Source of the DNA: Zetaproteobacteria bacterium CG1_02_55_237
Lineage (GTDB): Bacteria > Pseudomonadota > Zetaproteobacteria > Mariprofundales > Mariprofundaceae
Assembly: GCA_001871195.1 (NCBI GenBank)
Contig: MNXA01000003.1
Location: 1-46,983, forward strand
Length of the DNA stretch: 46,983 nucleotides
Direction: 5' to 3'
Under the pieces are notes generated by a model, which had not been told where the DNA came from, made no database searches, and was given only the letters and a program-made list of their open reading frames with translations. Below, piece by piece: positions 9,292 to 24,025 of the stretch (within the stretch, counting starts at the first letter, position 1; each line of letters opens with the position of its first letter). Position numbers and translations under genes: made by a program.

Positions 9292-10241
9292 GCCTGCTCA
9301 AGGTTGAATCCTTAAGTAAATCATTCGCCTCCGGCGGTATGTGGAGCGGGGTGCGCCGGGTGACGCATGCGGTGAACAACGTGAGCTTCGAGGTGGCAAA
9401 GGGAGAAACCCTGGCCATTGTGGGCGAATCGGGCAGCGGCAAATCGACCACGGCGCGGCTGGTGATGCGCCTGATTGAAGCCGATCAAGGGCGCATTTCA
9501 CTGCTGGGTGAGGATGTGTCTGGGCTTAAGGGCAAGGCTCTGCGCAAAAAGCGCAGGCATATGCAGATGGTGTTTCAGGACCCGTTCGCCAGCCTCAATC
9601 CGCGCATGAAGATTGTCGATTCGGTCGGCGAAGGCCTGCGCGTGCATGCGCCGGAACTCAACGGCAGTCAGCGGCGCCAGAAGGTGACCGATATCCTTGC
9701 CCAGTGCGGTATGGATGAGAGTGTGCTGGAGCGTTATCCGCACCAGTTTTCCGGCGGCCAGCGGCAGCGCATCGGCATTGCCCGCGCGCTTGCTGTTTCC
9801 CCCGAATTGCTGGTGCTTGATGAGCCGGTGTCGGCACTGGATGTGTCGGTACAGGCTCAGATTCTTAATCTATTGGGCGAATTGCAGAAAGAGCATCAGC
9901 TGGCCTATCTGTTCATCTCGCACGACCTGTCGGTGGTGCGGCATGTGGCCGACCGCGTGGCGGTGATGTTCGCCGGCTTTATTGTCGAGCAGGGAACGGT
10001 GCAGGAGGTATATAAGCATCCCCAGCATCCCTACACCCGTGAACTGCTGGAGGCTCGCCCGGTGTCGCATCCCTCAAAGCGCCATGCCGAGGGCGTGGAA
10101 ATCGTACGTAGCGATGAGGGGGTGGCCGAATCGGGTTGTGCCTTCCGTCTGCGTTGTCCGTTTGCGCAGGCCGACTGTGCAGGGTTTGATGCCCGTCTAT
10201 CCGACGGTGAGCATAAGGTCGCCTGCCTGCATCCCTTGTAG
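9288..10241 (+). CDS. Peptide ABC transporter ATP-binding protein, DppF/OppF type
   Basis: The 317-residue ATPase has Walker A GESGSGKST near 47, signature FSGGQRQRIGIARAL near 155, and Walker B LLVLDEPVSALDVS near 175. Its oligopeptide C-terminal extension has SGCAFRLRCPFAQADC. The insertion SGGMWSGVRRVTHAV near the N-terminus is typical of the OppF/DppF partner. The frame is open upstream within oppD, but ATG 9288 gives the natural MSLLKVESLSKSF start and a four-base overlap with the previous stop. It should pair with the upstream ATPase as a heterodimer. Confidence 0.88.
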   Translation: MSLLKVESLSKSFASGGMWSGVRRVTHAVNNVSFEVAKGETLAIVGESGSGKSTTARLVMRLIEADQGRISLLGEDVSGLKGKALRKKRRHMQMVFQDPFASLNPRMKIVDSVGEGLRVHAPELNGSQRRQKVTDILAQCGMDESVLERYPHQFSGGQRQRIGIARALAVSPELLVLDEPVSALDVSVQAQILNLLGELQKEHQLAYLFISHDLSVVRHVADRVAVMFAGFIVEQGTVQEVYKHPQHPYTRELLEARPVSHPSKRHAEGVEIVRSDEGVAESGCAFRLRCPFAQADCAGFDARLSDGEHKVACLHPL

Positions 10242-10299
10242 GTTTTTCGCGCATTCTAAGCAAAGCACTGCTGCTCTAAATCTGTTATGATGACTGGAG

Positions 10300-13023
10300 A
10301 TGAACGGGCCTGATATTTCCCGGACCGACTGGCATGCGCAGGAGGTCGAAGCGGTTTTCCAGCATCTGGAGAGCCGTGCCAATGGCCTGAGCCAGAGTGA
10401 GGTGGCCGAACGCCTGATCAGCTTCGGAGCCAACAGCCTTCCCGAGACCAAAGCGCCGGGCATCCACCTCCTGTTCCTTTCCCAGTTTCTCAGCCCGCTG
10501 ATCTATGTGCTCATGGCAGCCGCTGTCGTTTCAGCCTTGCTCGCCGAGTTTGCCGATGCCGGATTTATCACGGCGGTACTGCTGATCAATGCCATCATCG
10601 GCACGATTCAGGAATTCCATGCCCAGCGCAGTGCCGAGGCACTGCGCAGTCTGGTTTCCGCCCGCGCTATTGTGATGCGTGATGGTGAATCCTTCGAGGT
10701 GGATGCAGCCCTGCTGGTGCCCGGCGATATCGTGCTGCTGGAGGGTGGGGCCAAGGTGCCGGCCGATATCCGCCTGAGCCATGAATACGATCTTGAGGTG
10801 GATGAATCCCTGCTTACCGGCGAATCCCTGCCGGTTTCCAAGAATGCGCGCCTCCTGTTTGAGGCCGAAACGCCACTGGCGGATCGCAAGAACATGCTCT
10901 ACTCCGGCACGCTGGTGAATTGCGGGCGGGGCCGGGGCATTGTGATTGCCACTGGCGGCAGCACGCAGGTGGGGCAACTGGCCGAGGCCATGCAGCGCGG
11001 CGATACCGCCAAGCCGCCGCTGATTGTGCGCATGGAAAAATTCACCATGGGCATTGCTGCAGCACTCGGGGTCGTGGTACTCGCGCTGGCTGCTGTCGAG
11101 TTGTACAACGGAATCGGCTGGCACGAGGTCTTTCTGGTTTCCGTGGCGCTGGCAGTTTCCGCCATTCCCGAGGGCCTGCCGGTGGCCCTGACCGTGGCAC
11201 TGGCCATCGGCATGAACCGCATGGCCAAACGCGGTGTGATTGTGCGCCGGCTGGTGGCTGTGGAGGCGCTTGGTTCATGCACGGTGATTGCATCGGATAA
11301 AACAGGCACGCTGACCATGAATCAGCTGACGGTGGGCGAGGTGGCGCTGGCAGGACTCAGGTCATGGCAGGTGAGTGGTGGCGGCAACGAGCCCGAGGGC
11401 ATGGTGCTCTCCGATGGCAAGCCGCTGGATGAGGATCATCTGGCCCGTCTCAGGGATATCGCCCGTGCAGCCATACTGTGCAATGAAGGCTTTTTCGGTC
11501 GTCGTGATGAGGTCTGGGTCAGCCATGGCGATGCGGTGGATGTGGCGCTGCTGGTGTTGGGTCACAAGCTCGGCATGACGCAGGCTGCAGCGCTGGAATT
11601 GTGCCCGCTGAAGACCTCCATCCCCTACGAATCCGAGTTCGGTTATGCCGCTACCCTGCATCAGCTGGATGCAGATCACGACATTATTCTGGTGAAGGGA
11701 GCTCTGGAACGGCTGTTGCCGATGAGCAGGAGCATGGTGGTTGAAGATGGCACAAGCCCGCTTGATGCGCGCCTTCTTGAACGGCAGATGGAGGGTATGG
11801 CCGCAGAAGGGTTCCGCACGCTGGCCTTTGCCCATGCCGTGATTCCAGCGCGTTCCGACCTGAACGATTTCGGGCGAAGTGATTTGCAGAATCTGACCCT
11901 GCTCGGCCTGGTTGGCATGATCGACCCGCTGCGCGAGGAGGCGAAAGCGGCAGTTGCAGCCTGCCATCGGGCCGGGATTCGTGCCTGCATGATCACCGGC
12001 GATCATCCTGCCACTGCTTTTGCCATTTCCTGTCAGCTGGATCTCGCCACCAGTCCAGATCAGGTGGTGACCGGCACTCAGATTCGCGAGGCGGAGGGCC
12101 TGGGCGAAGAGGCGCTGCATGAACTGGTGAAAGGGGCCAATGTGTTTGCCCGTGTCGAGCCAAGCCAGAAGGTGGCGATTGTGCAGGCCCTGCAACGGGC
12201 CGGGCACTTTGTCGCCGTGACCGGCGATGGGGCCAATGATGCGCCGGCTTTGAATGCATCGCATGTGGGTGTGGCCATGGGCAAGCGCGGTACGGATGTG
12301 GCCAGGGAAAGCGCCGATCTGGTGATTGCCGACGACAATTTCGCATCCATTGTTGCCGGTGTGGAGGAGGGCCGGGTTGCCTACCGAAATATCCGCAAGG
12401 TGATCTTCCTGCTGATCTCAACAGGTGCCGCCGAACTGGTGCTGTTCTTCCTCTCGCTGGCTTTCGGGCTGCCGCTGCCGCTGACAGCCGTGCAGCTGCT
12501 ATGGCTGAATCTGGTGACCAACGGTATTCAGGATGTGGCGCTGGCCTTCGAGCCGCGCGAGGGCAACGAAATGCGCCAGCCGCCGCGAAGGCCCAGCGAG
12601 CCGATCTTCAATCGCATCATGGTGGAGCGCACCCTGATCTCGGCAATGGTGATCGGTGTGCTTGCCTTTCTCACCTTCCAGACCCTGCTGGCCGGCGGTA
12701 TGGATATCGATGCGGCGCGCAACAGCACGCTGTTGCTGATGGTGCTGTTCGAGAATGTGCATGCCTTCAACAGCCGTTCCGAAAGCCGCTCGGTGTTTTA
12801 TCACAACCCGCTGGCCAATCCATTGCTGCTCTACGGCACGGTGACCGCCCAGCTCATTCATATCGCGGCAATGTATGTGCCGGGGTTGAATACGATACTC
12901 GATATGCAGCCTGTTTCGCTGCTGCAGTGGCTTGAACTGGTGCCGGTGGCACTGGTCATCCTGCTGGTCATGGAGCTGCATAAATGGGTGCGCCACACTT
13001 GGCCGATTCAGATGAAGGCTTAA
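10300..13023 (+). CDS. Cation-transporting P-type ATPase, P2A (Ca2+-ATPase-like)
   Basis: The 907-residue membrane pump has every P-type landmark: TGES in the actuator (LLTGESLPVSK), phosphorylated Asp333 in SDKTGTLT, MITGDHPATA, and GDGANDAPALNASHVGVAMGKRG. The membrane motif AIPEGLPVAL and closing LWLNLVTNGIQD are those of P2A pumps, which move Ca2+ in SERCA/PMR1-like enzymes and Mn2+ or other cations in some bacteria. The substrate cannot be fixed here. ATG 10300 has CTGGAG just upstream. It converges on a second P-type ATPase with only 11 bp between the stops. Confidence 0.87.
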   Translation: MNGPDISRTDWHAQEVEAVFQHLESRANGLSQSEVAERLISFGANSLPETKAPGIHLLFLSQFLSPLIYVLMAAAVVSALLAEFADAGFITAVLLINAIIGTIQEFHAQRSAEALRSLVSARAIVMRDGESFEVDAALLVPGDIVLLEGGAKVPADIRLSHEYDLEVDESLLTGESLPVSKNARLLFEAETPLADRKNMLYSGTLVNCGRGRGIVIATGGSTQVGQLAEAMQRGDTAKPPLIVRMEKFTMGIAAALGVVVLALAAVELYNGIGWHEVFLVSVALAVSAIPEGLPVALTVALAIGMNRMAKRGVIVRRLVAVEALGSCTVIASDKTGTLTMNQLTVGEVALAGLRSWQVSGGGNEPEGMVLSDGKPLDEDHLARLRDIARAAILCNEGFFGRRDEVWVSHGDAVDVALLVLGHKLGMTQAAALELCPLKTSIPYESEFGYAATLHQLDADHDIILVKGALERLLPMSRSMVVEDGTSPLDARLLERQMEGMAAEGFRTLAFAHAVIPARSDLNDFGRSDLQNLTLLGLVGMIDPLREEAKAAVAACHRAGIRACMITGDHPATAFAISCQLDLATSPDQVVTGTQIREAEGLGEEALHELVKGANVFARVEPSQKVAIVQALQRAGHFVAVTGDGANDAPALNASHVGVAMGKRGTDVARESADLVIADDNFASIVAGVEEGRVAYRNIRKVIFLLISTGAAELVLFFLSLAFGLPLPLTAVQLLWLNLVTNGIQDVALAFEPREGNEMRQPPRRPSEPIFNRIMVERTLISAMVIGVLAFLTFQTLLAGGMDIDAARNSTLLLMVLFENVHAFNSRSESRSVFYHNPLANPLLLYGTVTAQLIHIAAMYVPGLNTILDMQPVSLLQWLELVPVALVILLVMELHKWVRHTWPIQMKA

Positions 13024-13034
13024 GCGGAGACCGG

Positions 13035-15629
13035 CTACATTTTCTGCAGCATTCTGAAGGTGGCGGCCTTTACGATGTCGTTGACCACAAACCATGCCAG
13101 CGCATAAGCCCATATCCACATGGCGTATTCCCAGCCGATGGGGGCGACCATGAATCCGTACACCGCAATGATCGTTCCCAGAATCTCGGTGCTGAAGGTG
13201 GCTGTGAAGAGCAGTGGTGAGGGCCATGGACGCTCCCAGAACCAGCCTTCGGAACGGGTGACATAGAGGGTACTGTGTCCGGCGATTACCAGCTTGAGAA
13301 AGATCAGGGTGCGGATGACATCGTCGGGAAAGCCCTGTTCGCGCAGGATGAAGTAAAGCAGAAACGATGAAATGACACCGGATATGCCCAGTACGGTAGA
13401 GACGGGCAGAAGCTCGCGCATATTCCAGCGCACAGGTGCCGGATGTACCCCGGTGTTGTCGTAAGCGATAGCCAGAATCGGGATATCGTTGAGCAGGGCC
13501 AGCATGATAATCATCAGGGCTGTGATCGGGTAAAAATTGAACACGATAATGGACAGGGCGATGAACAGGATGATGCGGATGCTTTCGGCGATGCGGAAGG
13601 TGGCATAGCTCTTCATGCGTGCGAAGGTGATGCGCGCCTGGCGCACCGCTTCGTTGATGACCGCCAGACCGGGGGCTGTGAGGATGACATCTGCCGCCGC
13701 GCGCGCCGCATCGGTGGCATTGGAAACGGCAAAGCCGCAATCGGCCTTTTTCAGCGCCGGGGCATCGTTAACCCCGTCGCCGGTCATGGCAACGATATGG
13801 CCACCCTTTTGCAGGGTATCGACGATGCGGTATTTATCCTCCGGCAACACCTCGGCAAAGATATCCACTTCCTCGATCATCTCGACGATGGCCGATTCGT
13901 GGCTATGCAGGAACTCGTGCTCCAGCATGCGGGTGTCGTAGAGCCTGCTTACATCCTGCATTACCTCACTGGCAAAAATCCGGGCCTCCTTCAGCGAAAC
14001 CTTGCCCTTGAGGCGTTGATAGGTGGCAGTGGTCACTGCCTCGACCAGTGACAGCAGCTCATTGCCTGCCGTGCCAGCCAGTTGCGCTGAACGGATGGTT
14101 CGCTGTTCAAGATTCAGCAGGCGCCCCACCTCTTTGGCGATGGCCAGATTATCGCCGGTCACCATCTTGACCTGAATGCCGCAGTCATGCATTGCGGCAA
14201 TGACTTCACGCGAATCATCGCGCGGCGGGTCGTAAAGCGGGATCAGGCCGAGCAAGACCAGCGGTTTTTTACCCTCCTGCCGGCCTACCGCGAGGGTGCG
14301 ATAGCCCTTGCCGGCCAGCAGCTCCACCATGTTCTGGATATTGTGCGCCTCGGCATCATCAAGTTCAGCCAGCTCCATCAGGACCTGTGCTGCGCCCTTC
14401 ATCACCACAAAACGCTCGTCTCCGCGCTCGATGCTTGCTTCGGTGCGCTTGCGGATGGGATCGAAGGGTGTGAATTGCGTCTGCCGCCAGGACGGCCAGT
14501 CCATCTCCGGAAAATGTTCATCGATATAGTGGAAAATGGGCAATTCGATGGGGTCATTGTTTTCCAGTCTGGATGCCAGCGCGGCGTATAGAAAAAGTTC
14601 ATGCAGACCATAGCCATTGAGCAGCAGCGGTTCGGCCACCTGCATCTCGTTTTTGGTCAGGGTGCCGGTCTTGTCGGAACAGAAGATATCAACCCCGGCA
14701 AGTTCCTCGATGGCAGTCAGCTTTGAGACGATGGCCTGCCGCCGCGCCAGATTTACAGCCCCCACGGCCATGGTAACCGACAACACCGCCGGCAGGGCCA
14801 CCGGAATGGCAGCAACGGTCAGCACCAGTGCGAAGCGGATGATTTCAAGCAGGGGGTCATGGCGGAACAGTGAAACCATGACAATCAGCAGCACCAGGGC
14901 GAGCGTGATCAGAATCAGATAATTGCCGATTTGCAGGACCATTTTCTGGAAATGGCTGCGCTCCTTCAGGGTGGCTCTGGCAATCAGTGATACCACGCTG
15001 GAAAAGTTGGTGTGCATGCCGGTGTTAAGCACCACAGCCAGCATTTCGCCCTGCCTGACTATGGTGTTGGCGTAGGCGACTTCGTTGATTTTTTTACTGG
15101 TGGGGAGGGATTCGCCGGTGAGGGCTGACTGATCGATCAGCAGATAGTCGCCCTTTAGAAGTTGCACATCGGCGGGAATGATATCGCCGATCTTGAGTTT
15201 GAGTACATCGCCCGGCACCAGGTTGCGGGCTGGAATGCTGGCGAAGGCGCTATCACGCAACGCGATGGCTTTACCCGCCAGGCCATGTTTGAGCGTTTTG
15301 AGCGCGTTGAGCGCGCGGTGTTCCTGAAAGAAGTCCAGAAAGGCATTGAGCAGCAGCATGACCATGATAATGCCGAAGTCTTCCCATTTCCCGACGATGG
15401 CCGACAGTACGGCCGCCACCTCGATCATCCATGGAATGGGTCCCCAGAAGCGGCGCATGATGCGATGCAACAGCGATTCTTCCTGTTCCTCGATCTGGTT
15501 ATAACCATAACGGGTAAGACGCACCTCAGCCTCGGCCTTTCTGAGCCCGCGAGTTGCATTGCTATCAAGCTCCGTCAGGGTTACCTCGGCGGCTTGACTG
15601 GCATATTCATCCGTTTTTTTTATTTCCAT
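13035..15629 (-). CDS. P3A-type plasma-membrane H+-ATPase
   Basis: The 864-residue pump resembles fungal, plant and archaeal proton ATPases. Features are TGESLPTSK, AAIPVALPAVLSVTM in the fourth membrane helix (PVALP, not PEGLP), phosphorylated Asp319 in CSDKTGTLTKNE, KMVTGDNLAIAKEVG, and MTGDGVNDAPALKKADCGFAV. The C-terminal membrane block (NFYPITALMIIMLALLNDIPILAIAYDN) contains the NDIPILAIAYDN motif of this class. It would pump protons out of the cytoplasm at the cost of ATP. ATG 15629 was preferred to GTG 15635. It converges with the P2A pump downstream. Confidence 0.88.
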   Translation of the reverse strand: MEIKKTDEYASQAAEVTLTELDSNATRGLRKAEAEVRLTRYGYNQIEEQEESLLHRIMRRFWGPIPWMIEVAAVLSAIVGKWEDFGIIMVMLLLNAFLDFFQEHRALNALKTLKHGLAGKAIALRDSAFASIPARNLVPGDVLKLKIGDIIPADVQLLKGDYLLIDQSALTGESLPTSKKINEVAYANTIVRQGEMLAVVLNTGMHTNFSSVVSLIARATLKERSHFQKMVLQIGNYLILITLALVLLIVMVSLFRHDPLLEIIRFALVLTVAAIPVALPAVLSVTMAVGAVNLARRQAIVSKLTAIEELAGVDIFCSDKTGTLTKNEMQVAEPLLLNGYGLHELFLYAALASRLENNDPIELPIFHYIDEHFPEMDWPSWRQTQFTPFDPIRKRTEASIERGDERFVVMKGAAQVLMELAELDDAEAHNIQNMVELLAGKGYRTLAVGRQEGKKPLVLLGLIPLYDPPRDDSREVIAAMHDCGIQVKMVTGDNLAIAKEVGRLLNLEQRTIRSAQLAGTAGNELLSLVEAVTTATYQRLKGKVSLKEARIFASEVMQDVSRLYDTRMLEHEFLHSHESAIVEMIEEVDIFAEVLPEDKYRIVDTLQKGGHIVAMTGDGVNDAPALKKADCGFAVSNATDAARAAADVILTAPGLAVINEAVRQARITFARMKSYATFRIAESIRIILFIALSIIVFNFYPITALMIIMLALLNDIPILAIAYDNTGVHPAPVRWNMRELLPVSTVLGISGVISSFLLYFILREQGFPDDVIRTLIFLKLVIAGHSTLYVTRSEGWFWERPWPSPLLFTATFSTEILGTIIAVYGFMVAPIGWEYAMWIWAYALAWFVVNDIVKAATFRMLQKM

Positions 15630-15767
15630 GGTCACCGCCTGAAGCCTGAAGCTTTGTCTTCATTTTATCCTATTGTAGACTGAAACATGGCAAACTTTTG
15701 ATCTGACAGGTTGCAGAGAATTTATTGTTGCTATGATGATATGCTGGAGCGGTTCCTCGATTGCAGG

Positions 15768-15784
15768 TGCGACAAGTTGTCGCA
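15768..15784. promoter_or_regulatory. RegA-type binding palindrome upstream of regB
   Basis: TGCGACAAGTTGTCGCA is a perfect palindrome with 8-bp arms around one central base. It fits the RegA/RegR box pattern GNGRCR-N4-GNCGC. A consensus -10 element TATAAT lies at 15808-15813 with no good -35, so the box sits where a class II activator would bind (centre near -44 from a start at about 15820). This suggests the pair regulates itself. Confidence 0.6.
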
Positions 15785-15807
15785 GCCCATTCAAGGACTG
15801 AAACCAC

Positions 15808-15813
15808 TATAAT
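15808..15813 (+). promoter_or_regulatory. Putative -10 element of the regB promoter
   Basis: TATAAT matches the sigma70 -10 consensus exactly. The expected -35 position (around 15785-15790) has no TTGACA-like sequence and directly abuts the RegA palindrome, as in activator-dependent promoters. An alternative upstream -10, TATGAT at 15732-15737, has TTGCAG 15 bp before it and is less convincing. Confidence 0.4.
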
Positions 15814-15876
15814 TTTTTTTCAGATTCGGCTATTGCCCTCGAGGGTCTGTCGAATTTCAAGCTGGAGGAAAAGCCC

Positions 15877-17169
15877 ATGCCGCATTTGCCGTCAGCACCT
15901 GTCATGCTGACCGATGCACCGACATTGTCGCGTAATCTTCAACGCCTGTTGCAGATGCGCAGCATCCTGATTCTCTGCCAGTTTGCCCTGGTGGCGCTTT
16001 CCCAGTTCGTGACGGAGATTCGTGTGGGCATGTGGCCCCTGCTGACGGTGATTGTGGCCTACTCGGCTGTGAATATGGTTTCCATCCGCCTATACGGGCC
16101 GCAGTCCGAAATTTCCGAAAAGGCGTATTTTGCCCAGCTCATGCTGGATGTCGTGTTCCTGACCGTGTTGATGTACTTCTCGGGAGGCTATACCAACCCC
16201 TTTATTTCACTTTATCTCTTCCCGATGATTATTGCCGGATCAACACTGCCCCGTTTCTATGCATGGCTGATGGGTGGATCGATTCTGCTTGGTTATTCCT
16301 TCCTGGTTTTCTTCTACCAGCCTATTTTTATGATGCAGATGGGCAATATGGGCAACGGCTTCCATCTGCATCTGGTTGGCATGTGGCTGACCTTCGTGCT
16401 CAGTGTCGGATTGATTGTTTTTTTCGTGATGCGCATGTCGGATGCGCTGCGCGAACGCGAGCGAAGACTGGCCGATATGCGAGAAAAGGCCGCACGCGAT
16501 GAGCGCATCATTGCCCTTGGCACACAGGCTGCCGGTGCTGCACATGAGGTCGGTACACCGCTGGCGACCATGGCGGTGATGGTCAGGGAGTTGCAGCATG
16601 AATGGGCAGACCAGAAGCCGCTTGTGCTCAAGCTTGGCATCATTCGCTCGCAGATCGACCGTTGTAAGGAAACGATGTCGCGCATGAGTGCCAGTGCCGG
16701 GCAATTCAGGGCCGAAGCCGGGCGTAGTATCAATATCAAATCCTACTTCGAGGGCCTTTTTTCCGACTGGAAGACGCTGCATCCCATGGCACATCTGCAT
16801 GCCGAGGCTGGCGGTTGCGATCCGGCTCCGGTGATCGTCATTGATGAGACACTGACTCAGGCTATCCACAATGTGCTGAACAATGCCTTTGAGGCCTCAC
16901 CGCAAGGTGTCGATGCCAAGGCTGTATGGACGCCCGAACTGTTGCAGTTAGAAATTCGCGATCACGGCAGAGGGTTGAGTGAGCAGGTCCTGCTATCGGC
17001 CACAGAGCCGTTCTTTACCACCAAGGAAAGCGGGCAGGGGCTGGGTCTTTTTCTCGTGCAGGAGGTGATGCGCAGGCTTGGCGGGGAAGTGACATTTTCA
17101 AACCATGCAGAGGGCGGTGCCTGTGTGACATTCATGCTGCCGCTCACCAAGCTTGTGGTGAAGGCATGA
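15877..17169 (+). CDS. regB: RegB/PrrB-type redox sensor histidine kinase
   Basis: The 430-residue kinase has about six membrane helices in residues 30-190. They contain GGYTNPF (103-109), the RegB quinone-sensing signature. The H-box AAHEVGTPLATM has the phosphorylated His223. Cys263 in DRCKETM corresponds to the redox-active cysteine of RegB. N-box HNVLNNAFEA and G-box GQGLGLFL complete the kinase. In other proteobacteria RegB represses or activates CO2 fixation, hydrogenase and respiratory genes through RegA in response to redox state. GGAGG lies nine bases before the ATG. The stop overlaps regA by four bases. Confidence 0.9.
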   Translation: MPHLPSAPVMLTDAPTLSRNLQRLLQMRSILILCQFALVALSQFVTEIRVGMWPLLTVIVAYSAVNMVSIRLYGPQSEISEKAYFAQLMLDVVFLTVLMYFSGGYTNPFISLYLFPMIIAGSTLPRFYAWLMGGSILLGYSFLVFFYQPIFMMQMGNMGNGFHLHLVGMWLTFVLSVGLIVFFVMRMSDALRERERRLADMREKAARDERIIALGTQAAGAAHEVGTPLATMAVMVRELQHEWADQKPLVLKLGIIRSQIDRCKETMSRMSASAGQFRAEAGRSINIKSYFEGLFSDWKTLHPMAHLHAEAGGCDPAPVIVIDETLTQAIHNVLNNAFEASPQGVDAKAVWTPELLQLEIRDHGRGLSEQVLLSATEPFFTTKESGQGLGLFLVQEVMRRLGGEVTFSNHAEGGACVTFMLPLTKLVVKA

Positions 17170-17714
17170 ACGAGATAGAGAGGGATGCTCCCAGCCTGCT
17201 GCTGGTCGATGACGATGAGCTGTTCTGTTCGGTGCTGGCCGCTGCGATGAGCAACCGGGGATATTCGGTGATGGTGGCGCACGATGTTGATGGCGCACTT
17301 GAAGTCGTTGGCGATAGCTCACCCGAATACGCCGTGGTCGATCTGAATATGCCCGGAGCATCGGGGCTGGTGCTGGTGGAAAGACTGCACGCTCTGGATG
17401 CATACACCCGTATCGTCGTACTCACCGGCTACGCCAGCATTGCGACAGCCGTGGAGGCCATCAAGCTTGGTGCCACCCATTACCTGACCAAACCGACCGA
17501 TGCGGATGAAATTGTTCTGGCCCTCGAACGCACTCAGGGGGATGTGGCGGTGGAGATTGCGCAACAGCCCATGTCGGTCAACCGTCTGGAATGGGAGCAT
17601 ATCCAGAAGGTATTATCCGAATGCGAGGGCAATATCTCGGAAACAGCCAGAAGGCTTGGCATGCACCGGCGCACCTTGCAGCGAAAGCTCTCCAAACGAC
17701 CGATGAAAACCTGA
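17166..17714 (+). CDS. regA: RegA/PrrA/ActR-type response regulator
   Basis: The 182-residue regulator has a receiver domain with LLLVDDDELF, the phosphoacceptor Asp59 in AVVDLNMPG, and LTKPTDADEI. A short linker leads to a Fis-type helix-turn-helix, NISETARRLGMHRRTLQRKL, which is almost unchanged among RegA, PrrA, ActR and RegR. It binds GNGRCR-N4-GNCGC boxes; two such palindromes occur nearby (15768 and 17748). It is coupled to regB by an ATGA overlap. The next gene downstream is a copper receptor with its own box. Confidence 0.92.
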   Translation: MNEIERDAPSLLLVDDDELFCSVLAAAMSNRGYSVMVAHDVDGALEVVGDSSPEYAVVDLNMPGASGLVLVERLHALDAYTRIVVLTGYASIATAVEAIKLGATHYLTKPTDADEIVLALERTQGDVAVEIAQQPMSVNRLEWEHIQKVLSECEGNISETARRLGMHRRTLQRKLSKRPMKT

Positions 17715-17747
17715 TAGTTCTGTCTCCTGCGTGATTTCAGGGGGGGG

Positions 17748-17764
17748 TGCGACAACGTGTCGCA
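17748..17764. promoter_or_regulatory. RegA-type binding palindrome upstream of the copper receptor
   Basis: TGCGACAACGTGTCGCA is a palindrome with 7-bp arms and a three-base centre. It differs from the site upstream of regB in only two central bases and fits GNGRCR-N4-GNCGC. It lies 63 bp before the receptor ATG; CATAAC at 17785-17790 could be a weak -10. Confidence 0.58.
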
Positions 17765-17826
17765 TTTACGCGAAAGTCCCTGCCCATAACAGTTCGACCC
17801 TCAAAACCACAGACAAAGAGGGTGTT

Positions 17827-19911
17827 ATGCAACGACGAAACGGGAAGCTCGCCGGGCTGCTGGCCTTTGGCTTATTTATGACAGCGGGACAGGCAGCTTA
17901 TGCCGCTGATGTGTTGTCGGCGGATAGCGCGCAGAACAGCACGCTGGACGAGGTGGTGGTGACGGCACCGCGCAGTGAGGAGCCGCTGACTGTGGTCACC
18001 GATCCCAAGGCCCCGCGCCAGCCGATTCCGGCGCACGACGGTGCCGACTACCTGAAGAACATCCCCGGTTTTTCAACGATCAGAAAAGGCGGCACCGATG
18101 GCGATCCGGTATTGCGCGGCATGGCCGGCTCGCGCCTGAATATCCTGCTCGATGGCGAGATGCTGCTCGGCGGCTGCGGTCAGCGCATGGACCCGCCCAC
18201 GGCCTATGTATTCCCCGCCGCCTATGATCGCATCACCGTGCTCAAGGGTCCGCAAAGCGTCGCCTACGGGCCGGGAAACTCTGCCGGTGTGGTTCTCTTC
18301 GAGCGCGATGTAAAGCGCTTTACGGAGCCTTCCGCGAAGCTTGATAGCGCAGCGACGCTTGGCAGTTTCGGGCGCAACGATGAGCGTGTGGATGTCCGCG
18401 CCGGCACACCCGATGCCTACGCACAGGCCAGTGCCACGCGTTCGCACATGGGCGATTACAAGGATGGTAACGGGGCCACAGTGCATTCGCCCTACACCCG
18501 CTGGAGCACCAATGCGGCTTTCGGCTGGACACCCAACGACGACACCCTTGTTGAGCTGACCGGGGCGAAGAGTGACGGCAAGGCTGCCTATGCCGATCGT
18601 GCGATGGATGGCGCCAAGTTCTCGCGCGACAATGTCGGTCTCAAACTCAGCCAGAAACATCTTTCAGAACTTGTGCAGAGCCTTGATGCGCAGCTGTATT
18701 ACAACTACGTCGATCATGTGATGGACAACTACAGTCTGCGCCCCTTTACGGCGACGGCGATGATGCCCAATCCGGCGGTGAGCAATCCGGACCGGCAGAC
18801 GACCGGTGGCAAGCTGATGGCCGGCTTCGCGCTGGGCGCTGCGACCGATGCCAGACTGGGCTTCGATTACCAGAACAACATCCACACCATCCGCTCGACC
18901 ATGAATCAGTTGACGACGCCGTATCAGGGCAAGGCGCGTGTACAGGATGCCCTGTTCCGCAACTACGGGGTGTTTCTCGACGCGACCCGCGACATCATGG
19001 ATTATGGCCGCGTGCTCGGCGGTGTGCGGGTGGATCGCTGGCGCGCCGAGGACAATCGCGCGACGGTGGCTACCGGCATGACGACGGCGGTGAACCCGAC
19101 CTATGGTCAGGTGCGCAACGAGACCCCGGTCAGCGGTTTCCTGCGTTATGAGTATGATCTGTCGACAGCGCCGGCCACCTTGTACGCAGGCCTTGGCAGG
19201 ACCACCCGCTTTCCCGATTACTGGGAGCTGATTCAGAAGGAAACCCTGACCACGGTCAGCGCCTTCAACACCAAAGCCGAAAAGACCACGCAGCTGGATG
19301 TCGGCATGCACTTCAATGGCGACAGCGTTTCGGCATCCGTCTCCGGCTTCTACAGCTGGATCAAGGATTTCAACCTGATTCAATCCAATGTGTCGAAAGC
19401 GGCCGGCATGATGACGCGTCTGGCCAACGTCAACCGCAACATCAATGCCACCACCTGGGGCGGCGAGATCAGCGCCGCGTGGATGCCGTTCGAATACTGG
19501 AAGCTGGATGGCACGCTGGCCTATGTGTACGGCGAGAACACCACGGATAACCAGCCCCTCGGCCAGATGTCGCCGCTGGATACGCGTCTGGGCCTGAGTT
19601 ACGACAACAAGGTGTTTTCGGGCGGGGCCTTGTTGCGCATGGTTGCCGCGCAGAAACGCTTTGCGCTCAATCAGGGCAATATCGCCGGTCAGGATATCGG
19701 GGCAACCGGCGGCTTCAGCGTGTTTTCCCTGAATACGGGCTGGAAGCCGATGCAGGACGTCCAGCTGACCGCCGGTGTCGATAATGTGTTCGACAAGCTT
19801 TACGCCGAGCATCTCAGCCGCGGCGGAAGTGCAGTGGCGGGCTATGTCACCACCACGCGCATCAATGAAATGGGTCGCAGCCTGTGGTTGAGCGTCAACG
19901 TAAACCTCTAG
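17827..19911 (+). CDS. TonB-dependent copper receptor, OprC/NosA type
   Basis: The 694-residue outer-membrane receptor has a signal peptide (LAGLLAFGLFMTAGQAAYA) and a TonB box region (TLDEVVVTAPR). The plug contains GGCGQRMDPPTAYVFPAAYD near 115, which is the hallmark of OprC and NosA copper receptors. The C-terminal strand ends in LWLSVNVNL, a normal barrel terminus. NosA supplies copper for nitrous oxide reductase in Pseudomonas; here the beneficiary is unknown, but copper for terminal oxidases would fit RegA control. The frame is open upstream, but the signal peptide sets ATG 17827. A tonB gene follows. Confidence 0.87.
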   Translation: MQRRNGKLAGLLAFGLFMTAGQAAYAADVLSADSAQNSTLDEVVVTAPRSEEPLTVVTDPKAPRQPIPAHDGADYLKNIPGFSTIRKGGTDGDPVLRGMAGSRLNILLDGEMLLGGCGQRMDPPTAYVFPAAYDRITVLKGPQSVAYGPGNSAGVVLFERDVKRFTEPSAKLDSAATLGSFGRNDERVDVRAGTPDAYAQASATRSHMGDYKDGNGATVHSPYTRWSTNAAFGWTPNDDTLVELTGAKSDGKAAYADRAMDGAKFSRDNVGLKLSQKHLSELVQSLDAQLYYNYVDHVMDNYSLRPFTATAMMPNPAVSNPDRQTTGGKLMAGFALGAATDARLGFDYQNNIHTIRSTMNQLTTPYQGKARVQDALFRNYGVFLDATRDIMDYGRVLGGVRVDRWRAEDNRATVATGMTTAVNPTYGQVRNETPVSGFLRYEYDLSTAPATLYAGLGRTTRFPDYWELIQKETLTTVSAFNTKAEKTTQLDVGMHFNGDSVSASVSGFYSWIKDFNLIQSNVSKAAGMMTRLANVNRNINATTWGGEISAAWMPFEYWKLDGTLAYVYGENTTDNQPLGQMSPLDTRLGLSYDNKVFSGGALLRMVAAQKRFALNQGNIAGQDIGATGGFSVFSLNTGWKPMQDVQLTAGVDNVFDKLYAEHLSRGGSAVAGYVTTTRINEMGRSLWLSVNVNL

Positions 19912-19972: not shown

Positions 19973-20671
19973 ATGCACTGCCTGACGGACCCTTGGTCCG
20001 AACCGGCGCCGTTTGACTGGCGCGGCTGGCTGCTGCCCGTCATTCTGGCTTTTGCCACGCATGCATTCCTGTTGTGGCTGGTGATCGGCCAGTCCGATGG
20101 GCCGTCCTTTCCCGTGGCGCGAAGTATCCATGTGACGCTGGTGAATCTTGCTTCGCCCAGGAAAGAGGTGCCTGCGAAGGTCGAGCAGGCGGTAGAGCCA
20201 GTAGAAAAACCGAAGGCTGTCGTGCAGCCGGTGAAACAAGAGCCAAAACCCGTCAGGAAAGCCGTTAAACAGACCGTAGCAGCTCCGCCCGAGCCTTTAC
20301 CTGCGCCAGCCTCTGTGGAACCTGTCGAGGCGCCAGAAGCGCCAGAAGTATCAGAACCAGACATACAGCAGGCGATGCCCGACAGCAGCCCGGATTACCA
20401 CGCCGCCTATCTGCACAACCCGCCGCCGCTTTATCCCAATGCCGCACGGCGCCGTGGCTTGCAGGGCAGGGTTCTATTGCATGTCGAGGTGATGGCTGCG
20501 GGGCATTGCGGGCATATCGAGGTGCAGCAGAGCAGCGGTCATGAGATTCTTGATGCAGCCGCCGTCGAGGCGGTGAAAGAGTGGCAATTCATCCCGGCCA
20601 CGCATTTCGGCTTCCCCGTCACCCGCTGGATGCACATCCCCATCCGCTTTAAACTGACTAAGGCTGATTAA
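19973..20671 (+). CDS. tonB: TonB energy-transducing protein
   Basis: The 232-residue protein has one N-terminal membrane anchor (WLLPVILAFATHAFLLWLVI), a long proline/lysine/glutamate-rich periplasmic spacer (about 60-130), and a C-terminal TonB domain with PPPLYPNAARRRGLQGRVLL and GHEILDAAAVEAVKEWQFIPA. It would carry inner-membrane energy to the adjacent copper receptor. ExbB and ExbD are not in the window, so they must come from another locus. No strong ribosome-binding site precedes ATG 19973. Its last four bases overlap the end of the convergent hoxW gene. Confidence 0.87.
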   Translation: MHCLTDPWSEPAPFDWRGWLLPVILAFATHAFLLWLVIGQSDGPSFPVARSIHVTLVNLASPRKEVPAKVEQAVEPVEKPKAVVQPVKQEPKPVRKAVKQTVAAPPEPLPAPASVEPVEAPEAPEVSEPDIQQAMPDSSPDYHAAYLHNPPPLYPNAARRRGLQGRVLLHVEVMAAGHCGHIEVQQSSGHEILDAAAVEAVKEWQFIPATHFGFPVTRWMHIPIRFKLTKAD

Positions 20672-21249
20672 TCCTGAGAGGTTTTTTCGATACTGGTAGG
20701 CAGGGTATAGCCGCCGCAAGCGCGTGACTGGCAATGCGATTGCGCCTTGTCAGTTGAGCTGAGCAGCCGATTCCAGTCCTTTCCGGAGACGTCTGCGCAG
20801 AGTTTGCGAACCAGTTCGATAGCCGCTGCGAGATTGAGGCATGCCTGATCGCCCATCGGGTCGCCGAGTTCGAAATTATAGCCGCGAATACGCAAGACAT
20901 AGGAGGGCGGTGCCTCGCTGCCGTAAACCCGCCGATAGGCATGCAGCAGTGCGCCCGGGGTCATGGCGTGACTGGTATAGCTGCCATCTTTTTCAGGCTC
21001 CAGAATCTCGAATGTATAGGGCTCCGCACAGGACATGTCGGCATCGACAAACAGGACGCGCTCACGCCCCGCAAGATCCATGACATGTTCGGCTTGCAAC
21101 TGCATGTCGGTTTGAGTCTCTACGAGCGGGCATTCGACACCTGCAAACGCTTCCGCTTCAATAGCAGCGGCAAGCTCCGGGCCGAGGGCATCATCGCCCC
21201 GGCCCGGATTGCCGTAGCCGAATATCAGAACGGGTTTTGTCGAACTCAA
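20668..21249 (-). CDS. hoxW: Hydrogenase maturation protease HoxW
   Basis: The 193-residue protein begins VLIFGYGNPGRGDDALGP, the conserved start of NiFe-hydrogenase endopeptidases, with the nickel-sensing Asp/Glu positions of the HycI/HoxW family further on. It should cut the C-terminal tail from HoxH once NiFe(CN)2CO insertion is complete. The likely start is TTG 21249, overlapping the hoxH stop, because the GYGNPG strand lies only ten residues downstream and no ATG precedes it. The C-terminal tail after about residue 160 (with CQSRACGG) is not part of the usual family core. Confidence 0.87.
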   Translation of the reverse strand: MSSTKPVLIFGYGNPGRGDDALGPELAAAIEAEAFAGVECPLVETQTDMQLQAEHVMDLAGRERVLFVDADMSCAEPYTFEILEPEKDGSYTSHAMTPGALLHAYRRVYGSEAPPSYVLRIRGYNFELGDPMGDQACLNLAAAIELVRKLCADVSGKDWNRLLSSTDKAQSHCQSRACGGYTLPTSIEKTSQD

Positions 21250-22706
21250 AGTGAGCGTTCGATGTTTCCGTTGCTACCCTTGGTCAGTCGATCAACAAGG
21301 CCACCATTGGCATCGATCAGTTCGACCTGCAAAGGCATCTTGCCCAGTGCATGTGTCGCGCAGGACAGGCAGGGATCGTAGGCGCGTACGGCTACTTCCA
21401 GATGGTTGAGCAGGCCTTCGGTGATTTCATTGCCGTCGATGTACTGATCGGCAACCGAGCGCACCGATTCGTTCATCGCCTGATTGTTGCTGGTTGTCGA
21501 AACAATCAGGTTGGCCTTTTTGATCATGCCTTCTTCATCAATCTTGTAGTGGTGGAACAGCGTGCCGCGTGGTGCCTCGATGACGCCGATACCCTCGCTG
21601 CGTTTCTCGCCGGTAACCACCAGATCGGAGCCTGAAATATCCTCATCATTGAGCAACAGCTCGATGGCCTCAGCACAGTACAGCATCTCGATCATGCGTG
21701 CCCAGTGATAGGCCAGTGTGTCCTGCACGAAGCTGCCATGGGCAAAGGCCTTAAAGCGCTTGCGGGCGGCTTCGGCCAGCGGTGTGCTGATCGAATCGCA
21801 GTTGTTCACGCGGGCCAGCGGGCCTACGCGATACCAGCCTTTCTCCTTGCCGAGCGAGGTCAGGTAAGGGAACTTCATATAGCTCCACGAACGCACTTCC
21901 TCGCGGATGATGTCCTGATAGCCGCGATAATCGAACTGGTCGAACAGCGTTGAGCCATCAGGAGCACGGGCGCGCAGGCCGCCGTGATACAGTTCCAGTT
22001 CGCCCTTGGGACCAATCATACCCAGGAAGTTGGTGTTCAGTTTGCCGAAGGCATGATTCTCGGGATGCGCCATGTGAATCTGCTCGTTCAGGGACACTGC
22101 TTCCTCAGACCAGGCGATAATATCCTTGATGTCGGCCAGCAGAACATTGCGCTCTTCTTTGGTCAGGGATTTGTTCATGCCACCCGGTACGGCAGCTGAG
22201 CCATGCACGCGCTTGCCTGAAATGGCGGCAATCACCTGCTGACCGTATTTGCGCAGCTTCACGCCCTTAACGGCGGTTTCCGGATGCGCTTCGATTACGC
22301 CGATGATGTTGCGCTTGGCCACGTCCGAGCCGAAGCCGAACAGCAGATCGGGCGAGGAGAGATGGAAGAAGTGCAGGGCATGCGACTGCAGGGTCTGCCC
22401 GAAGTGCAGCAACTGACGCAGCTTGAGGCTGCTCGGTGTAAGTTCTTCCACACCGACCAGTTGATCCACGGCCTTGGCAGCCGCCAGATGGTGGCTGACC
22501 GGGCAGATGCCGCACAGGCGCTGCACGAAGGTCGGGACTTCCCAATAGGGGCGCCCCTGGATGAATTTCTCGAAACCGCGGAATTCGACAATATGCAGAC
22601 GGGCTTCATGCACACGATTGTCTGCATCCTGTAGCAGGGTTATTTTACCGTGCCCCTCGACACGCGTTACCGGATCAATGGCCACTCGGCGCATTTGTTC
22701 ACTCAT
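21246..22706 (-). CDS. hoxH: NAD-reducing [NiFe] hydrogenase large subunit HoxH (group 3d)
   Basis: The 486-residue subunit carries both nickel-binding motifs: RLCGICPVSHH (Cys65, Cys68) and DPCLSCATH (Cys446, Cys449). It splits H2 at the NiFe site. A 34-residue tail after His452 (ALGKMPL to the end) is the peptide removed by HoxW, whose gene overlaps downstream. The motifs and gene order hoxFUYHW match the soluble NAD-linked hydrogenase of Cupriavidus necator. AAGGAG lies eight bases before the ATG. The 34-bp gap to hoxY holds only this ribosome-binding region. Confidence 0.95.
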   Translation of the reverse strand: MSEQMRRVAIDPVTRVEGHGKITLLQDADNRVHEARLHIVEFRGFEKFIQGRPYWEVPTFVQRLCGICPVSHHLAAAKAVDQLVGVEELTPSSLKLRQLLHFGQTLQSHALHFFHLSSPDLLFGFGSDVAKRNIIGVIEAHPETAVKGVKLRKYGQQVIAAISGKRVHGSAAVPGGMNKSLTKEERNVLLADIKDIIAWSEEAVSLNEQIHMAHPENHAFGKLNTNFLGMIGPKGELELYHGGLRARAPDGSTLFDQFDYRGYQDIIREEVRSWSYMKFPYLTSLGKEKGWYRVGPLARVNNCDSISTPLAEAARKRFKAFAHGSFVQDTLAYHWARMIEMLYCAEAIELLLNDEDISGSDLVVTGEKRSEGIGVIEAPRGTLFHHYKIDEEGMIKKANLIVSTTSNNQAMNESVRSVADQYIDGNEITEGLLNHLEVAVRAYDPCLSCATHALGKMPLQVELIDANGGLVDRLTKGSNGNIERSL

Positions 22707-22740
22707 ATTAATCTCCTTAATTCAAAGACGTGTCAGGTTC

Positions 22741-23295
22741 TCAATCGTAATGCAAAATTTCTTTCGGCAGGCTTGGCTCCTTGCCTTCCAGCAGATCGGT
22801 TAACACCTTCAAAAAGGCCTCGGCCGGCGGCGGGCAGCCCGGCAGATAATAATCCACATGCACAACCTCATGGATCGGATGCACCTTGGAAAGCAGTAGT
22901 GGCAGTTCGACATCATTCGGGATCATTGGGTTTTCCACGCCGATGCCGTCCAGATAGGCCTCTTCAAGACACTCTTTGAGGGTGTAGTGATTACGCATGG
23001 CCGGCACACCGCCGTTGATGGCGCATGCCCCGACCGCGATGATAATCTTGCAGCTCTCGCGGAATTCCTTGAGTACATGCACGTTCTCTGCATTGCACAG
23101 GCCGCCTTCGATCAGGCCGATATCACAATCAGGATCGCAATGCTTGATATCGTTGATGGGTGAACGGCTGAATTCGACATGCTCGATCAGACCGACAATT
23201 GCCTCGTCGATATCAAGGAAGGACATATGGCAGCCGAAGCAGCCTGCCAGGGAGGTTGTGGCTACACGGACTTTCTTCTTAGTGCTCATCGGCAT
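22741..23295 (-). CDS. hoxY: NAD-reducing hydrogenase small subunit HoxY
   Basis: The 184-residue small subunit has the cysteine set of the proximal 4Fe-4S cluster: GCFGCHMSFLD near 20, IIAVGACAINGG near 92, and YLPGCPPPAEAF near 155. It lacks the C-terminal cluster region and the Tat signal of uptake hydrogenases, which fits a cytoplasmic group 3 enzyme. It carries electrons from HoxH to HoxU/HoxF. Two starts are possible, ATG 23295 and ATG 23289; the first lies five bases after AAGGAA. Either way it overlaps the end of hoxU. Confidence 0.93.
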   Translation of the reverse strand: MPMSTKKKVRVATTSLAGCFGCHMSFLDIDEAIVGLIEHVEFSRSPINDIKHCDPDCDIGLIEGGLCNAENVHVLKEFRESCKIIIAVGACAINGGVPAMRNHYTLKECLEEAYLDGIGVENPMIPNDVELPLLLSKVHPIHEVVHVDYYLPGCPPPAEAFLKVLTDLLEGKEPSLPKEILHYD

Positions 23296-24025
23296 GCTTT
23301 CCTTTACGCAGAATAACCGGTTCCAGACCGGGCTCGGCAATGGTGTGCAGATCGAAGGTGCGGCGGCCGATCGGTGTTTCATAGCCGTGTTCCTTGATCA
23401 GGATGGCGCCGACCGGGCAGATATGCGCGGCCAGATCGTCGGTGGTGATGTCTGTGTCAGCCAGTTTACCGGAGGCCGAATTGACGATCAGTTTGGCGTC
23501 AACGCCGCGTCCGGTGATGGCAAAGACATCCTTGCCATCCACTTCACGGCTGGCTCGCACGCATAGCTCGCACATGATGCAACGATCACGGTCGAGCACG
23601 ATGCTTTCATGCGAGGCATCCACCTCACGCTTAGGGTAAAACTGCGGGAAATGGCCGTCGAGCATATCCAGATGGTAGGCCACAGCCTGCAGGGTGCAGT
23701 CGCCTGTTTTCTCGCAGGACGGGCAAAAATGATTGCCTTCGACAAACAGCATCTGGGTAATGGTCTTGCGCACCTCAGTGAGTGCCTCGGTGTTGTTGCT
23801 GACTTCCTGTCCGCTTGCTGCCGGCAGGGTGCAGGCCGAAGCACTGCGTCCGTTGACTTCCACCGTACACAGCTTGCAGCTGCCGTGCGGTTTCAGGCCG
23901 GGGCGATGGCACAGGTGCGGGATGTAGATGTCCGCAGCCAGTGCTGCGTCCATGATCGTCTGACCTTCGGTAAAGGGAATTTCCTTACCGTCTATGATGA
24001 TGGTGTTGTTGTTTGCTTCACTCAT
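23279..24025 (-). CDS. hoxU: NAD-reducing hydrogenase diaphorase subunit HoxU
   Basis: The 248-residue subunit resembles the N-terminal part of NuoG. It has a 2Fe-2S ferredoxin domain (HLCHRPGLKPHGSCKLC near 40), a histidine/cysteine cluster region (GNHFCPSCEKTGDC near 100), and a 4Fe-4S motif (DRCIMCELCVR near 150), with a further conserved cysteine in HICPVGAI. It relays electrons between HoxY and the FMN-containing HoxF. It starts inside the end of hoxF (ATGA overlap) and its end overlaps hoxY. Confidence 0.93.
   Translation of the reverse strand: MSEANNNTIIIDGKEIPFTEGQTIMDAALAADIYIPHLCHRPGLKPHGSCKLCTVEVNGRSASACTLPAASGQEVSNNTEALTEVRKTITQMLFVEGNHFCPSCEKTGDCTLQAVAYHLDMLDGHFPQFYPKREVDASHESIVLDRDRCIMCELCVRASREVDGKDVFAITGRGVDAKLIVNSASGKLADTDITTDDLAAHICPVGAILIKEHGYETPIGRRTFDLHTIAEPGLEPVILRKGKHADEH

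Follow-up and report, generated by a model that had tools for sequence, protein, structure and literature searches.

RegB/RegA systems (PrrBA, RegSR, ActSR, RoxSR) are recognised by a conserved gene pair and by kinase motifs that define the RegB group, namely a quinone-binding GGXXNPF motif, an H-box, and a redox-box cysteine (PMC8191878, PMC5506826). Their DNA sites are less uniform. The motifs published for RegA, PrrA, and RegR are degenerate, and RegA and PrrA sites also vary in spacing (PMC4263372); no RegA motif could be found in Acidithiobacillus ferrooxidans (PMC5506826), a strong RegA/PrrA motif did not emerge from ChIP-seq in R. sphaeroides, and for RoxR motifs we found nothing on point in the literature. 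Several of these regulators have been linked to metals. B. japonicum RegR influences copCAB. RegA of R. capsulatus is a copper-binding protein that uses Cys156 to dimerise; that work concerns copper-driven dimerisation and not control of a copper receptor (PMC9147068). In Methylomonas sp. DH-1, RegA raises expression of tonB and of a TonB-dependent receptor, apparently indirectly, and ChIP placed RegA directly at feo only, with no motif described (PMC13274454). In the literature searched, we found no paper that describes control of a copper receptor by RegA, and nothing on point for copper receptors together with redox two-component systems.

We analyzed a 46,983-nucleotide stretch (the window) of the genome of Zetaproteobacteria bacterium CG1_02_55_237, in which two palindromes flank a regB-regA pair that is followed by a copper receptor gene. 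The preliminary description of this DNA had proposed that RegA controls both itself and the receptor, and an exact-match search located TGCGACAAGTTGTCGCA at 15768 and TGCGACAACGTGTCGCA at 17748, exactly where it had placed them. The features of the locus are as follows.

15768..15784, no strand assigned: palindrome 1, TGCGACAAGTTGTCGCA (exact match), predicted site for RegA in the regBA promoter, centred at about -44
15808..15813, plus strand: TATAAT hexamer lying 23 nt beyond palindrome 1, the -10 element of a regBA promoter that lacks a -35 box
15877..17169, plus strand: regB, redox histidine kinase, 430 aa (NF033792 ActS/PrrB/RegB, 1.5e-67, and motifs)
17166..17714, plus strand: regA, response regulator, 182 aa (NF033791, 8.7e-61), receiver and Fis-type HTH
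17748..17764, no strand assigned: palindrome 2, TGCGACAACGTGTCGCA (exact match), predicted site for RegA in the copper receptor-tonB promoter, centred at about -41
17785..17790, plus strand: CATAAC hexamer lying 20 nt beyond palindrome 2, probably the -10 element of the receptor promoter
17827..19911, plus strand: TonB-dependent copper receptor (TIGR01778, 3.9e-221), 694 aa when read from ATG 17827
19973..20671, plus strand: tonB-like gene (TonB_C, 2.4e-22), in the same gene order in a second zetaproteobacterial genus

The two regulatory genes share the order of described RegB/RegA pairs, together with the GGXXNPF motif, H-box, and redox cysteine of the kinase, the receiver and Fis-type HTH of the regulator, and a GCG-type dyad as the putative operator. 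In the predicted RegB, the quinone motif reads GGYTNPF at residue 103, the H-box HEVGTPL at 223, and the redox-box RCK includes Cys263. NF033792 is its best family, with a score of 228 bits that does not reach the curated cut-off of 350; likewise, NF033791 is the best family for RegA, at 205 bits against an unreached cut-off of 250. RegA comprises Response_reg (4.7e-24) and HTH_8 (8.3e-15) domains, and Mariprofundus is among its named relatives. The phosphoacceptor Asp59 is invariant in the alignment, as is the recognition helix HRRTLQR at residue 167 across 18 aligned RegA proteins. Cys153 adjoins the HTH and aligns with R. capsulatus Cys156 (PMC9147068), and in both cases the regulator is linked to copper; the residue is absent in several relatives. 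Upstream of regB, at 10300-15635, lie two convergent P-type ATPase genes, one of Ca-type and one of plasma-membrane H+-type.

Palindrome 1 is a perfect dyad with 8-bp arms around one base, and palindrome 2 has a single arm mismatch that falls outside the 7-bp core arms. Both fit the pattern GNGRCR-N4-GNCGC with which they had originally been described, a pattern that is in itself weak evidence: it matches the window 7 times where 4.4 matches are expected, and 17 of 100 shuffles reach the same count. The shared core TGCGACA-N3-TGTCGCA, with 14 fixed bases, is far more discriminating. In pattern searches of the 2.33-Mb genome with the reversed pattern as control, it has exactly two exact copies, both flanking regBA, against an expectation of 0.017 per 2.33 Mb under an order-2 Markov model (Poisson P ~1e-4). 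Allowing one mismatch gives three sites (reversed control, 0). Random distribution of the palindrome in the genome had been named as an outcome that would speak against RegA control; the scan instead finds the exact site confined to the regBA locus, with one weaker site elsewhere. With up to two mismatches there is no genome-wide excess (13 sites vs 14 for the reversed control), which indicates that the strict regulon is small. A larger regulon built from two-mismatch sites in this genome was considered and dropped because their count is on a par with that control. A pattern tolerant of transitions adds only one further match in the genome, at C42:48057. An 8-G homopolymer at 17740-17747 abuts palindrome 2; it could be prone to slippage and lies upstream of the predicted activator site.

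Comparison with published consensuses gives a mixed picture. Palindrome 1 agrees at every position with the RegA consensus of R. capsulatus, SSGNVRDNHYSNCSS, as quoted in PMC5506826, and palindrome 2 misses one central base of it. Both miss one base of the PrrA consensus YSCGGC(5)GWCRMA (PMC5506826). The RegR-type pattern used in the preliminary description is a loose one: both palindromes depart from the published RegR box GNGRCRTTNNGNCGC at two positions. The locus differs from known RegB/RegA systems in that its 17-bp palindrome is stricter, keeps a fixed position at -41 to -44, and occurs in strict form only a very few times genome-wide.

The arrangement around palindrome 1 had been read as an activator-dependent promoter, with a perfect TATAAT about 24 bp downstream and no -35 box. 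We find the hexamer 23 nt after the dyad, and scanning 15600-17900 for sigma-70 promoters turned up none with a -35 box. The layout recurs in relatives with conserved -10 spacing: when 22 zetaproteobacterial sites and 36 other sites were scored separately, a -10-like hexamer is conserved 20-23 nt after the dyad, and 0 of 5000 shuffles reach the TATAAT score in either set. Placing the predicted transcription start 7 nt after the -10 element, near 15820 for regBA and 17797 for the receptor, puts the dyad centre at about -41 to -44. CRP/FNR-type class-II promoters likewise have a dyad near -41, a -10 element, and no -35 box. With respect to the predicted starts, a dyad near -41.5 with a -10 element and no -35 box is class-II activator geometry, although CRP/FNR-type promoters involve an unrelated DNA-binding protein and another dyad sequence.

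This geometry also bears on the possibility that RegA binds both dyads as a repressor, the overlap of the site with the -35 region blocking RNA polymerase and causing negative autoregulation and receptor repression. The dyad does extend to about -33, overlapping the -35 position, and known RegA proteins repress some targets (PMC5359404). Against this, promoters lacking a -35 box would be weak without an activator, and the -10 spacing is constrained in a way needed for activation but not for repression. We therefore regard repression as unlikely and activation by RegA as the better account of the promoter layout.

The dyad is conserved at regBA loci across the family. Among 30 RegB-positive family loci, it occurs (≤2 mismatches) at 22 in the 300 bp preceding regB and at 13 in the 300 bp that follow regA; at 29 of the 30 it is upstream of regB and/or downstream of regA, where 0.1 would be expected. 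Genus g8 has the dyad after regA only. Between the window and its congener G002 the flanks have diverged, and the dyad is retained 92-93 bp from regB in both. Site abundance also follows the kinase. In the first 37 family genomes, the 17 with RegB hold 22 sites with at most one mismatch (reversed control, 7) and the 20 without RegB hold 5 (reversed control, 8), which is background (P = 1.7e-4 for the difference between the groups); in G014 and G036, the counted sites include one directly upstream of regB. Across 80 named RegA loci (1.0 Mb, for the most part from Beta- and Gammaproteobacteria), there are 54 dyads with at most two mismatches versus 8 for the reversed control, clustering just upstream of regB at 37 of 74 testable loci. 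The other 37 of the 74, mostly Beta- and Gammaproteobacterial, have no dyad with ≤2 mismatches upstream of regB, and the more distant loci G044, G053, G056, and G047 have none near it. Co-occurrence with RegB, a conserved place in three classes, and the invariant HRRTLQR helix together point to RegA as the protein that binds the dyad.

The dyads might instead serve a different dimeric regulator, such as a repressor that responds to copper or redox state and is encoded elsewhere, with RegA a mere neighbour. RegA binding is itself a prediction from sequence, and a copper regulator would suit the copper-linked targets described below. Such a regulator would have to account for a site abundance that tracks RegB presence in the family and for a dyad that accompanies regBA in three classes while being missing from 27 of 29 copper receptor loci unlinked to regBA, and we consider it improbable next to RegA.

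We also weighed whether the dyads act as RNA hairpins that terminate or attenuate transcription, in which case the regBA transcript would end at palindrome 2. Either dyad could fold into a 7-bp stem around a 3-nt loop; the folding is nonetheless unexceptional (z -1.8 and -0.35), no terminator is called at either palindrome, and in sense-strand relatives such as TGCGACAATTTGTCACA the stem contains a C-A mismatch. Palindrome 1 lies upstream of the predicted transcription start, and some relatives have overlapping tandem dyads. The folding, the absence of a terminator call, and the stem mismatches led us to reject this very improbable reading. The tandem dyads, 15 bp apart, stand after regA at L192:10206-10237, L078:7517-7548, and L077:5846-5877, an arrangement that suggests side-by-side dimers.

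The receptor gene downstream of palindrome 2 scores 736 bits, above the TIGR01778 cut-off of 472, with copper assigned as its substrate by family name only. Its start is ATG 17827 and not an upstream GTG, because the ribosome-binding site and start are conserved in the second zetaproteobacterial genus (G062). The tonB-like gene is probably co-transcribed with it. G062 has the same order as the window, regB-regA-palindrome-TIGR01778 copper receptor-tonB; the two can be aligned over the proximal dyad, over ATAACAGTTC, and over the ribosome-binding site, and ATAACAGTTC is kept at an equal distance from the proximal palindrome of G062. These two are the only ones of 41 sampled family genomes with a TIGR01778 receptor. 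In a Nitrosomonadales locus (L148) and a gammaproteobacterial one (L134), a receptor of 763-776 bits is divergent from regB with the dyad between them. Over 32 receptor loci, the dyad is present at 3 of 3 regBA-linked and 2 of 29 unlinked ones (P = 0.002), the 27 without it belonging to Pseudomonas-like and other receptors. Only a few of the receptors adjoining regBA exceed the copper cut-off; others resemble heme or siderophore receptors.

Copper storage genes show a similar association with regBA. A Csp1 gene lies immediately upstream of regB in G004, G011, G019, G020, L113, and L167, and is preceded by the dyad in G004, G011, and G020. Csp1-family genes beside regB, in Zetaproteobacteria and a Methylotenera genome, are located at the following coordinates.

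L079:4664-5146: Csp1-family gene beside regB
L076:8068-8571: Csp1-family gene beside regB
L082:4450-4950: Csp1-family gene beside regB
L113:5048-5500: Csp1-family gene beside regB

Csp1 genes distant from regBA have no clear dyad, except for one two-mismatch match (L182 at 1854). In other family members, exbB-exbD-tonB or TonB-receptor genes of uncertain substrate stand behind the dyad. Met-rich outer-membrane-like proteins are encoded next to regBA, again behind the dyad, in G010 and G062 (L080:7029-8138, L192:12357-13454); with their ASECGLSCCIAAG motif and no Pfam match, they are a possible new copper-related family. RegB/A control of iron uptake in Methylomonas sp. DH-1 (PMC13274454) offers a parallel, since RegA affects metal uptake there, along with both a tonB-exb operon and a TonB-dependent receptor. 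Here, by contrast, dyads stand directly ahead of the receptor and tonB genes.

Farther downstream, at 20668-24025 on the minus strand, are NAD-linked [NiFe] hydrogenase-like genes (HoxH, HoxY, HoxU, and a maturation protease), identified from translations only; no dyad was seen in this region. RegA controls hydrogenases elsewhere.

The one-mismatch site outside the locus, G000:C15:9792 (L095:9792-9808), lies 22 nt before a perfect TATAAT and precedes the gene for a small exported Gly/Gln-rich protein of 122 aa (9876-10244). Orthologs in G002, G027, G081, and G083 keep the left half-site at about equal position, with the right half degraded. This arrangement supports the small exported protein as a candidate third RegA target.

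The proposal that RegA controls itself and the copper receptor thus gains support, at the level of genome comparison, from the co-occurrence with RegB, the conserved position, and the linkage in G062 and in Beta- and Gammaproteobacteria. We consider it quite probable that both palindromes are RegA operators and that phosphorylated RegA activates regBA and the copper receptor-tonB genes in class-II fashion. Palindromes on either side of the pair would serve as operators for the RegA encoded between them. RegB would phosphorylate RegA, a RegA dimer would occupy the 17-bp dyad, whose centre lies some 41-44 bp ahead of the start, and the bound protein would contact RNA polymerase, standing in for the missing -35 box. 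The outcome would be positive autoregulation of regBA and coupling of the copper receptor and tonB to respiratory redox state.

Known RegB/RegA systems act on photosynthesis, nitrogen fixation, or oxidases, whereas the putative local targets here are metal-uptake genes. A more far-reaching idea, which we offer tentatively and hold to be doubtful, is that RegBA is a local copper-acquisition switch and not a global redox regulator, both in Zetaproteobacteria and, with a patchy distribution, in Beta- and Gammaproteobacteria. Strict class-II dyads would let it drive tonB-exbBD, Csp1 copper storage, and copper receptors; copper might then feed back through Cys153 and close a copper-redox loop. A strict, conserved dyad with fixed promoter spacing provides a RegA box that can be put to use in Zeta-, Beta-, and Gammaproteobacteria. 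The arrangement predicts that respiratory redox state would be coupled directly to copper storage or to copper uptake across the outer membrane; the terminal oxidases of these bacteria are expected to depend on copper.
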